Shown: positions 25,460-60,637 of the stretch, in pieces
Numbering within the stretch: the first letter of the stretch is position 1
Layout: every line of letters begins with the position of its first letter
Assembly (NCBI RefSeq): GCF_000379125.1
Contig: NZ_KB900626.1
Location: forward strand, 2,614,667-2,678,666
Reading direction: 5' to 3'
From: Methylosinus sp. LW4
Lineage (GTDB): Bacteria > Pseudomonadota > Alphaproteobacteria > Rhizobiales > Beijerinckiaceae
Length of the DNA: 64,000 bases
Notes under the pieces: model-generated
Seen by the model: the letters and a program-made list of their open reading frames with translations, nothing else
The model's database searches: none
What the model was told of the DNA's origin: nothing
Translations under genes and position numbers: made by a program

Positions 25460-25504
25460 AACCCTGCGCCCCCCGGCGTCCTGGCCGGGCTTGTCCCGGC
25501 CATC
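25460..25504. repeat. Composite palindromic repeat, family A (copy 4, left half, split by IS110)
   Basis: GTCCTGGCCGGGCTTGTCCC followed by GGCCATC matches the left arm of the other family A copies and then stops at 25504, where IS110 sequence begins. The rest of this copy resumes at 26651. Confidence 0.85.
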
Positions 25505-25518
25505 TCCTGTGTCTTCTG

Positions 25519-26463
25519 TCAAGCGGGGGCGTGCTTCCATGGCTTGTTTTCTTTCGCAATGGCGTTGAGGACGACGAGCATTTTGTGCATGACGGCGGTC
25601 AAGGCGACTTTTCCCGGCCGTTGATTTTGAGTGACGAGGCGTTCGTAGAAGGCCTTCATGACCGGATTCCAGCGGATTGCGGCGCGGGCGGCGTTGAAGA
25701 GAACGCGGCGCACGCCGGGTCGTCCATGGCCGGTCGTCGCCCGAAAGCTGCGTTTTCCACTTTGCCTGGTCACCGGTGCGAGGCCAACGAGCGCGGAGAT
25801 CTCTTTTCCGGTCAGTCGGCCGAGTTCAGGAAGCTCGCCGAGCAATGTATGCACGGTCACCGGCCCGACCCCTTTGAGGCTTCGCAACAGCCTGGCGACA
25901 TTCGCGAGCTCAGCGGATTTTGCGATATGGGCATCGATTTCCGTTTCGATGTCGTCGCAAGCTTTTTCGAGCATCGCGATGAGCGTGGCCAGCGATTGGC
26001 GCACGACATCATTTTCGGCGATGGCGGCGCGGCAACGCTCGGCCTGCAAGAGATCGACGAGCTGGCGCCGACGCGCCGTCATTTCCCGCAGCGCGCCGTC
26101 GCCTTCGACGAGAGGCCCGAGGCCGCGCGCCGAGAGCTCGCTCGCGCCGAAAGCCGCCAGCTGCCGGGCGTCGATTTGGTCGGTCTTGGCCTTGGCGCCG
26201 CGGCGGGCTTTGAACGCCGCGATCTCGTTGGGGTGAGCCCTGGCGAAAGCGACGCCGGCGGCGAGCAGGCCCGCGCGCAAGGGGCGTTCGTAGCCGCCCG
26301 TCGATTCGAAGACGACGAGCGTCGGCTCTCGCCCGAGCCGCGCCAGAAAATCGGACACGGCGGCTGTCGTATTTTCGATACGCTCGACGTCGGCGCGATC
26401 GTGCCGAGCGATGTCGAGCCAGTCTTTCGAGACGTCGACGCCAATGTAACACTTGTCAGTCAT
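25519..26463 (-). CDS. IS110-family transposase (DEDD recombinase)
   Basis: 314 residues from the ATG whose complement ends at 26463; the longer frame upstream runs through the noncoding end of the element. The N-terminal RuvC-like domain has all four acidic residues: Asp10 (YIGVDVSKDWLD), Glu53 (VFESTGGYE), and Asp95 and Asp98 (KTDQIDARQLA). The C-terminal Tnp domain has LKGVGPVTVHTLLGELPE and the serine motif TRQSGKRSF with Ser235, the likely nucleophile, then GRPGVRRVLFNAARAA. Full length with every catalytic residue, so probably active. Family members use an RNA guide encoded in the noncoding end. Confidence 0.93.
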   Translation of the reverse strand: MTDKCYIGVDVSKDWLDIARHDRADVERIENTTAAVSDFLARLGREPTLVVFESTGGYERPLRAGLLAAGVAFARAHPNEIAAFKARRGAKAKTDQIDARQLAAFGASELSARGLGPLVEGDGALREMTARRRQLVDLLQAERCRAAIAENDVVRQSLATLIAMLEKACDDIETEIDAHIAKSAELANVARLLRSLKGVGPVTVHTLLGELPELGRLTGKEISALVGLAPVTRQSGKRSFRATTGHGRPGVRRVLFNAARAAIRWNPVMKAFYERLVTQNQRPGKVALTAVMHKMLVVLNAIAKENKPWKHAPA

Positions 26464-26489
26464 GCCAGCCCCCGGCAAAATGACAGATG

Positions 26490-26640
26490 GGTCCACACGC
26501 CGGATTGCATTCGGGCGAAAGCCCCTAACTCCTGTTCGCGTGAGCGACCGAGACGCTGGCGGTTTCAAGATGGCCACGGTCGCAAAGACCAATCCACGCC
26601 CCGAGGGACCGCCAGCGTCCAAGTCTCGCAAGAGACGATG
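26490..26640 (-). ncRNA. Putative IS110 bridge RNA
   Basis: Read on the minus strand, upstream of the transposase. (1) 5' hairpin GTCTC/GAGAC at 26636-26623. (2) Target loop closed by a perfect 12-bp stem (26608-26619 with 26552-26563); its 5' arm at 26600-26592 matches the target half at 26659-26651, its 3' arm at 26575-26569 is complementary in sense to GATGGCC of the other half (25504-25498), and an inner hairpin sits at 26590-26578. (3) Donor loop closed by CACGC/GCGTG (26542-26538 with 26500-26496); its arms at 26535-26529 and 26510-26503 match the two element ends at 25510-25504 and 26653-26646, with an inner hairpin at 26524-26513. This is the layout known for IS621-type bridge RNAs. 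Transcription is not shown. Confidence 0.75.
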
Positions 26641-26650
26641 CGATCATGCA

Positions 26651-26805
26651 ATCCACGCCAGCGCGCGCCGCGCCGTGGCAGGGTCTGGCGTGACGGCGAA
26701 GCTCTGGCGCGCCTGCTGTCGGTCGTGGGCGCTTTCCTTGGTCTCTCGGCTCCTTGGCGTGGATGGCCGGGACAAGCCCGGCCAGGACGCGGCGCCCTTG
26801 CGGGA
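26651..26805. repeat. Composite palindromic repeat, family A (copy 4, right part)
   Basis: Continues copy 4 after the IS110 insertion, from ATCCACGCCAGCGCGCGCCG through the conserved middle to GGGACAAGCCCGGCCAGGAC. It retains one more GGCGTGGATGGCC site at 26756-26768. Confidence 0.85.
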
Positions 26806-35489: not shown

Positions 35490-35564
<75 letters not shown>

Positions 35565-35670: not shown

Positions 35671-35745
35671 TGGTGGGCGGCACAGGGATTGAACCTGTGA
35701 CCCCTCCCGTGTGAAGGGAGTGCTCTCCCGCTGAGCTAGCCGCCC
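35671..35745 (-). tRNA. tRNA-Val (anticodon CAC)
   Basis: Full cloverleaf on the minus strand: acceptor GGGCGGC/GCCGCCC, D arm AGCTC/GAGC, anticodon stem CTCCC/GGGAG with loop TTCACAC, T arm ACAGG/CCTGT with TTCAATC. CCA is encoded. Anticodon CAC reads GTG. It lies about 107 bp from tRNA-Thr. Confidence 0.95.
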
Positions 35746-59666: not shown

Positions 59667-60637
59667 CCGCAACGACGCCCGACAGACTCATCGTCGCCGT
59701 TCCCTCCAAGGGCCGGCTGCAGGAGAACGCCAACGCCTTTTTCGCCCGCGCGGGCATAGAGGTGACGCAGGGGCGCGGGGCGCGCGACTATCGCGGCCAG
59801 CTCGCCGGCGTGGAGGATGCGGAGGCCGCCTTTCTCTCCGCCTCCGAGATCACCTCGCGGCTGGCCAGCGGCGACGTCCATCTCGGCGTGACGGGCGAAG
59901 ACCTCGTGCGCGAGACGATTGCCGACGCGGCGAGCAAGGTGGAGATTCTGGCGCCGCTCGGCTTCGGCAAGGCCAATGTGGTGGTCGCCGTTCCGCAGGC
60001 CTGGATCGACGTGCGGACCATGGCCGATCTCGCCGATGTCTCGGCCGGCTTTCGCGCCCGCCATGGCCGCGGGCTGCGCGTCGCCACCAAATATATCCAC
60101 ACGACGCGGCGCTTCTTCGCCAAGCACGCCATCGGCGATTATCGCATCGTCGAGAGCTCCGGCGCCACGGAAGGCGCGCCGGCGGCGGGCTCCGCCGATC
60201 TCATCGTGGACATCACCACCACCGGCGCGACGCTCGTCGCCAATGCGCTGAAGACTTTGGACGATGGCGTGATCCTGCGCTCGCAGGCCAATCTCGTCGC
60301 CTCGCTGACCGCGCCCTGGACGCCGCGGGCGCGGGAGGCGGCGCGCATCATCCTCTCGCGCATAGCGGCCGAGGAGCAGGCCCGCACGACGCGCGAGATT
60401 CGCGCCCGCGTGACGCTGGACGAGACGCTGCTCGCCGAGGCGGCGGAGAAATTTTCCGTTGAGCTGCGCGAGCGTGGCGACGGCGGCTTTTTCGCCTTCT
60501 CCGCCTCGGCGGATGGCGCGCCGCAATTCGCCGACTGGCTGATCGCCAAAGGCGCGCGCACGGTGACGAGCGCCCGGTTGGACTATGTGTTCAGCGCGGA
60601 AAATGCGCTGTGGAGCCGGCTGCAAGGGCGGATTTGA
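59663..60637 (+). CDS. hisG: ATP phosphoribosyltransferase catalytic subunit
   Basis: 324 residues from the ATG at 59663, overlapping the hisZ stop. HisG makes phosphoribosyl-ATP, the first step of histidine synthesis. Motifs: [37 protein letters not shown] and [19 protein letters not shown] (PRPP loop). It has about 90 residues beyond the PRPP loop region, more than the shortest HisZ-dependent forms, ending [19 protein letters not shown]. The adjacent hisZ shows it works as the hetero-octamer type. A repeat-filled gap follows. Confidence 0.94.

Follow-up and report, generated by a model that had tools for sequence, protein, structure and literature searches.

Does the non-coding leader of an IS110-type recombinase gene in Methylosinus sp. 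LW4 encode an RNA that guides the element to its insertion site? The window, which is the whole analysed stretch of 64,000 nucleotides, contains such a leader, and an earlier note made from the letters alone had proposed that it holds a bridge-RNA-like guide with both loops matching the observed target and donor ends.

The element, its recombinase and its target

The minus strand carries a 1149-bp insertion sequence of the IS110 group at 25502-26650 (counting one copy of the AT core), with its right end (RE) at the low and its left end (LE) at the high coordinates and with junctions placed from an interrupted palindrome and from relatives. The left side is long, with 187 bp separating the start codon from the core, and only 15 bp lie between the stop codon and the core on the right side. 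The joined flanks restore a 13-nt site that occurs 15 times in the genome, and the insertion at the core is thus clean, as in the IS110 group. The short right end is not that of the IS1111 group, in which the bridge RNA is placed in the right end. The core is AT, with GGCGTGG-AT-GGCC as the target and ACAGGAG-AT-TGCAT as the donor. The window also contains two tRNA genes on the minus strand (35493-35564 and 35674-35745).

The recombinase gene (25519-26463, minus strand) is intact and encodes 314 amino acids. The protein contains the DEDD RuvC-like domain and the Transposase_20 domain that characterize the IS110 family and group, with 53 bits for PF01548 (cut-off 29) and 72.1 bits for PF02371 (cut-off 21.3), and it matches NF033542 ("IS110 family RNA-guided transposase") with 179.3 bits, where the NCBI cut-off is 140. 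Solved sequences matched by the protein are the IS621 recombinase (8wt6, 82.3 bits) and ISCro4 (9t56, 78.3 bits). Residues D10, E53, D95, D98 and S235 align with the catalytic residues D11, E60, D102, D105 and S241 of IS621, as numbered in the available text of PMC11208158 (the chain 8wt6 in the alignment is numbered two higher). In an alignment of 23 recombinases, the D and E residues are invariant and S235 is nearly invariant.

The element interrupts a REP-like palindrome. This palindrome adjoins the right junction (25483-25501, plus strand) and is parted by the element from its left target half, and the partner palindrome of the same inverted pair is located at 26765-26783 on the plus strand, with an intact target site at 26756-26768. 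The palindrome, GGCCGGGNCAAGCCCGGCC, has 16 exact copies in the genome, compared with none for a reversed-pattern control, and the uninterrupted 13-nt target, GGCGTGGATGGCC, has 15 copies, again with none for its control. Twelve of the 16 exact palindromes form six inverted pairs (e.g. C1:1942897 and 1943045; C1:3690615 and 3690763), five of which have starts 147-150 bp apart, and the starts of the pair in the window are 133 bp apart with the element left out; the pairs represent a compact repeat unit.

A relic of the left end is present elsewhere in the genome (G000:C1:2033157-2033270, about 1507-1620 of L002). It is 114 bp long with 99% identity, and consists of GAT of the junction and the first 111 bp of the left end. 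It also follows GGCGTGGAT, the same 9-nt target half, and the base preceding GGCGTGGAT differs. The simplest reading of the relic is that the same half-site was used for a further insertion, although the shared bases would also result if only the repeat had been conserved. It keeps the 5' hairpin and the complete target loop with its guides, without the donor loop and without an adjoining recombinase gene. A stand-alone target-guide RNA, acting in trans and used by the recombinase of the intact element, is conceivable since a 58-nt RNA shortened from the 74-nt seekRNA of ISEc21 and carrying target matches supported transposition, according to the available text of PMC11187229. We consider such a role for the relic very doubtful; the reading is weakened by one base change in the closing stem, with a target-loop fold of -39.8 versus -44.5 kcal/mol in the window copy. 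Between the REP arm and the half-site of the relic there is a small GIY-YIG-like gene (L002:1196-1486, labelled by eye), whose single further homologue in the genome is 56% identical. With only two such genes in the genome, a connection of GIY-YIG genes to REP sequences was considered and set aside, and our literature search found no paper joining GIY-YIG with "repetitive extragenic palindromic".

Guides and stems of the predicted RNA

The predicted bridge RNA is located at 26480-26636 on the minus strand. Its structure is conserved in eight elements, and both ends are predicted, the 5' end from a -10-like box. The earlier note had described four guide arms, and a letter check found all of them to match exactly. 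In the first loop, the left target guide (LTG; GGCGUGGAU, 26592-26600, minus strand) equals the left target flank at 26651-26659 (ATCCACGCC), which is the left target half and core, GGCGTGG-AT on the element (minus) strand. The match spans 11 nt on the plus strand (26590-26600 equals 26649-26659), two bases of which are inside the element. The right target guide (RTG; GGCCAU including the core, 26570-26575, minus strand) is the complement of ATGGCC on the element strand at 25498-25503, and the reverse complement of 26569-26575 equals 25498-25504 (GGCCATC). The core and right target half read AT-GGCCGGG on the element (minus) strand at 25495-25503, and both target halves were assigned by letter check and by the count of targets in the genome. 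In the second loop, the left donor guide (LDG; ACAGGAG, 26529-26535, minus strand) equals the right end of the element at 25504-25510 (CTCCTGT as read along the window); it stops short of the core, and its next bases are UU. The right donor guide (RDG; AUGCAAU including the core, 26504-26510, minus strand) is the reverse complement of the core and left end at 26646-26652, and the full arm at 26503-26510 is the reverse complement of 26646-26653 (ATGCAATC). The scored guides of the window copy match its own ends and target at 23/23 positions.

The suggestion that four such matches are unlikely by chance was borne out by scoring the best ordered chain of four matches, with the junctions set from the interrupted palindrome and not from the RNA. 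The score of 31 was reached by none of 5000 dinucleotide shuffles of the leader (mean 19.0, sd 2.1, maximum 28).

The closing stems and inner hairpins are present as proposed. The target loop is closed by 12 bp, with the 5' arm at 26608-26619 and the 3' arm at 26552-26563 (minus strand), and the covariation analysis showed that 97.9% of the cells are paired and that 3/12 pairs have changed on both sides. According to the consensus structure and covariation, the donor loop (26490-26549, minus strand) is closed by 5 bp (26538-26542 with 26496-26500) and has an additional outer stem of 4 bp (26546-26549 with 26490-26493). Each loop contains an inner hairpin; in the target loop (26578-26590, minus strand) it forms a GGTC/GACC-type stem with 96.9% of the cells paired in the eight elements. 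The claim of a 5' hairpin stood in part: GTCTC-ttgc-GAGAC (26623-26636, minus strand) can be drawn by eye but is absent from the consensus structure of the eight elements, and this region varies in length among the relatives. The region thus contains the two internal loops with conserved stems of a bridge RNA, and the 5' hairpin by eye only. A single-sequence fold of 26464-26653 had z = -1.77, with 10/200 shuffles folding equally well, and folded the right donor guide onto the left end itself; taken alone, such a fold would be weak evidence for a bridge RNA. Rfam at gathering cut-offs gave no bridge-RNA match in this region.

We compared eight distinct elements (the window element, L027, G194, L056, L057, L058, L059 and L083; L178 is the same element as L057), where the recombinases of the seven relatives are 52-75% identical to that of the window. 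They were selected by a pattern of the left end and right donor guide among loci including the 80 kept of 413 matches. None of the left-target, right-target and left-donor guides was part of the pattern, and these three hence represent free tests, while the conservation of the right donor guide and its two following bases is partly selected. The loop arms track the flanks of their own elements, where the opposite had been named in the earlier note as evidence against a guide. The right-target guide matches its own flank at 55/56 positions, the left-donor guide its own right end at 55/56, and the left-target guide its own flank at 54/72, or 60/72 after a one-base shift in L057, in which this guide is out of register by one base and the right-target guide has one mismatch. 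Since the elements are kin, re-pairing counts are not strict probabilities, but the three guides together match at 164/184 positions, equalled by 5 of 40320 re-pairings, and at 170/184 with the left-target guide of L057 moved one base, equalled by 1 of 40320. G194 was represented by one copy, L147 (GATTCCC); with its commonest flank GATCCCC used instead and L057 shifted, the match was 169/184, still equalled by 1 of 40320. The left-target guide alone, as aligned, was equalled by 1632 of 40320 re-pairings and is indecisive. The target loop is complementary to and covaries with both target halves, and the donor loop covaries on its left side, with a right side that matches but hardly varies.

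The stems are also conserved, as predicted. The consensus structure of the eight elements, from a small and partly gapped alignment, contains 40 pairs in which 93.7% of the cells pair, compared with 33-45% when the partners are slid by 1-3 columns. Seven of the 40 pairs have changed on both sides, a number found in 0/500 shuffles, and further pair types showed no excess over shuffles (374/500 as high).

G194 has nine copies, and seven of them entered the comparison. In each of these, CGTACTGG precedes the left end, and the right end and AT are shared as well; CGTACTGG is one base longer than the G194 guide GTACTGG, and 7/8 of its bases match the guide. Beyond the junctions the copies differ, with much of a flanking repeat common to six of them. 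L145 is by eye without that repeat, yet its left flank reads CGTACTGGAT and its right flank GATTTCC. The right-target guide asks for GATTCCC, to which L147 fits at 7/7 positions, L143, L144, L145, L146 and L148 at six, and L142 at five. More distant multi-copy families match similarly, e.g. a G117 copy has the guides CTCATCC and ACCTCAG versus the flanks CCTCATC-CT and CT-GAGGT. Nine of the 14 scored rows were compared with 200 shuffles each; six scores were never reached, and those of G202, G235b and L058 were reached by 1, 3 and 4 shuffles, respectively. G216, with an unresolved right end, was left out of scoring, and G207 was used for the handshakes only. In L176 (G121), the left end is partly duplicated, and the break falls at the point where the target half recurs in the left target guide (GTGCACCC; by eye), as if the guide copy might have served as a half-target or recombination point.

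Handshake bases, circle junction and distribution

Two features were absent from the earlier note: crosswise handshake guides and a promoter-like site at the circle junction. In IS621, the bases following each right guide form pairs with the other DNA once the strands have been exchanged, and pairing with their own DNA blocks recombination, as stated in the available part of PMC11208158. In the window element, the target-loop handshake guide CU (26568-26569, minus strand) fits donor bases 6-7 (AG) at 2/2 and its own target at 1/2 positions, and the donor-loop handshake guide CC (26502-26503, minus strand) fits target bases 6-7 (GG) at 2/2 and its own donor at 1/2. The handshake guides are thus complementary to the non-cognate DNA on both sides. 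The crosswise fit is 4/4 in the eight close elements, which are all the same in this respect and hence not independent, and CC is partly inside the pattern by which they were selected. Among the diverged families, the handshakes of G117, CG and GA, fit crosswise at 4/4 and their own DNA at 0/4 positions, and those of G207 fit crosswise at 3/4; G202, G235b and G121 were left out of this count because their core could not be fixed to the base.

At the right end, a -35-like box, TTGACA (25517-25522, minus strand), overlaps the stop codon, and it is placed 17 bp from a -10-like box at the left end, CATGAT (26643-26648, minus strand, a sequence match), once the ends are joined. By sequence match, TTGACA-17-CATGAT (10/12) is the best promoter-like site in the 75-nt junction. 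TTGAC(A/C/G)-17-CATG(A/G/T)T occurs at the junction of the window element and of all six close relatives scanned, including G194 and L058, whose right ends run well past the stop codon. L056 has TTGACA, but CGTGTT replaces CATGNT. Of four diverged families examined, G117 has TTGACC-17-TAACTT at its junction, and G202, G235b and G121 have no such boxes at this position. Scanning the integrated copy for promoters gave none on the minus strand. The IS621 circle junction also carries a promoter, according to the available text of PMC11208160.

The relatives were found in records of Rhodovastum, Rhodopila, Devosia, Methylopila and Rhizobiales, all of which we take to be alphaproteobacteria. A single-sequence scan of the genome contigs confirmed no relative, while an alignment query did confirm relatives (the 80 kept of 413). 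Close relatives were rare in the genomes searched: none but the window's own appeared among 385 in the class with E up to 1e-80, 1 of 18 within the G235 family has a close relative at this threshold, and in the family of G194 2 of 198 have one at 1e-75. The plasmid collection contained no match at 1e-60, and the viral contigs contained four distant relatives with 33-50% identity. A covariance model applied to 100 sources gave 38 matches (E up to 1) and reached few distant relatives; beyond the window and the relic, the two matches with E < 1e-4, L030 and L084, both lie immediately upstream of a recombinase. Weak hits were discarded, as unrelated places in the window also matched (60140-60280, E 0.004). 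The genome of the window further contains a broken piece of an IS110 gene (G000:C1:652680-653237; 41% identical, one internal stop codon) and, at four places (L023-L026), a second, distant IS110-like recombinase with a 430-codon frame and 32% identity over the C-terminal part.

Interpretation and comparison with known systems

The order of 5' hairpin, target loop and donor loop, the strand senses, the place in the long left end, the tracking of flanks and the covariation of stems all support the IS621-type bridge RNA that the earlier note had read here. We consider it almost certain that 26480-26636 (minus strand) encodes an IS110-group bridge RNA, with anatomy and covariation that are observed directly and with transcription, binding and catalysis suggested by analogy with IS621. 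Excision to a circle would join the element ends, and the joined ends would form a promoter transcribing the left end. The RNA would bind the recombinase. Its first loop would pair with both strands of GGCGTGG-AT-GGCC in the REP-like repeat, and the circle junction, ACAGGAG-AT-TGCAT, would pair with the second. The recombinase would then exchange strands at the AT core, helped by the crosswise handshake bases.

That the matches arose by chance because GC-rich, REP-like sequence recurs in the genome has a negligible probability. The palindromes do repeat here and the target guides resemble a portion of such a palindrome, but shuffles never reached the observed score, the donor guide follows the right end of its own element, the guide-matched bases persist in L145 where the wider repeat is absent, and no homologue with unmatched loops is found among the eight compared. 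The leader, which is structured, might instead be a 5' region that chiefly regulates the transposase gene, as a structured leader or through antisense control, with the flank matches as by-products. Such regulation has a precedent in ISPpu9, inserted in REP sequences, for which two small RNAs and a 5' structure are reported as regulators in the available text of PMC8450116 and which Tobes and Pareja class as IS110 (PMC1525189, available part). However, regulation needs neither loops that track the flanks and right end of each element nor crosswise handshake bases, and we regard it as highly improbable as the main role, although it could coexist with guiding.

A less remote alternative, although still unlikely, is that the bridge RNA is genuine but belongs to a dead element, whose inherited anatomy has gone out of use in this genome. 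The genome holds one intact copy and one truncated left-end relic, together with 15 uninterrupted target sites. A search of 198 other genomes in the family, eight of them of the same genus, did not recover the left end, and any current activity would thus be presumptive. Against a dead element, the reading frame and the catalytic residues are intact, the guides match throughout and the handshake bases fit.

A literature search by title and start of abstract found no report of this lineage, which is not proof of absence. The element represents a further, well-resolved bridge-RNA lineage that targets REP sequences and has an AT core, in which the right-target and left-donor guides have changed among relatives together with the flanks and right end. 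From such natural guide sets one can read which guide positions are retuned in evolution, and a recombinase with an AT core would be worth comparing with IS621.

As far as IS621 is described in the available texts of PMC11208160 and PMC11208158, it shares the left-end RNA with a 5' hairpin and a target loop followed by a donor loop, and in each loop the 5' arm equals the left half and the 3' arm is the complement of the right half. It also shares a core ending in T, the crosswise handshakes, the circle-junction promoter, a REP target, and the DEDD and serine residues. In contrast, its recombinase is distant, its guide, target and donor sequences differ, its core is CT rather than AT, and its right target guide has four bases rather than six including the core. 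AT, GT and TT cores also worked in IS621, in general less efficiently, and bridge RNAs were predicted in 85.7% of IS110s (PMC11208160, available text). Similarly, the seekRNA of ISEc21, as presented in the accessible part of PMC11187229, belongs to an IS110-type element and comes from the upstream non-coding region, with the bottom-strand match 5' of the top-strand match; however, its target is a conserved stretch of IS3-family transposase genes, and the RNA is described mainly as a 74-nt form with target matches. ISPa11, ISPpu9, ISPpu10 and ISRm19 share the IS110 family and REP-specific insertion; they are likened here by description and not by sequence, and the available portion of PMC1525189 does not mention a guide RNA. 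According to the same source, it was known from experiments by 2006 that IS621, an element of the IS110 family, targets REP sequences. The window element is a clear further example of this known RNA-guided recombination, not a new kind, and it leaves the picture of how the IS110 family works unchanged.
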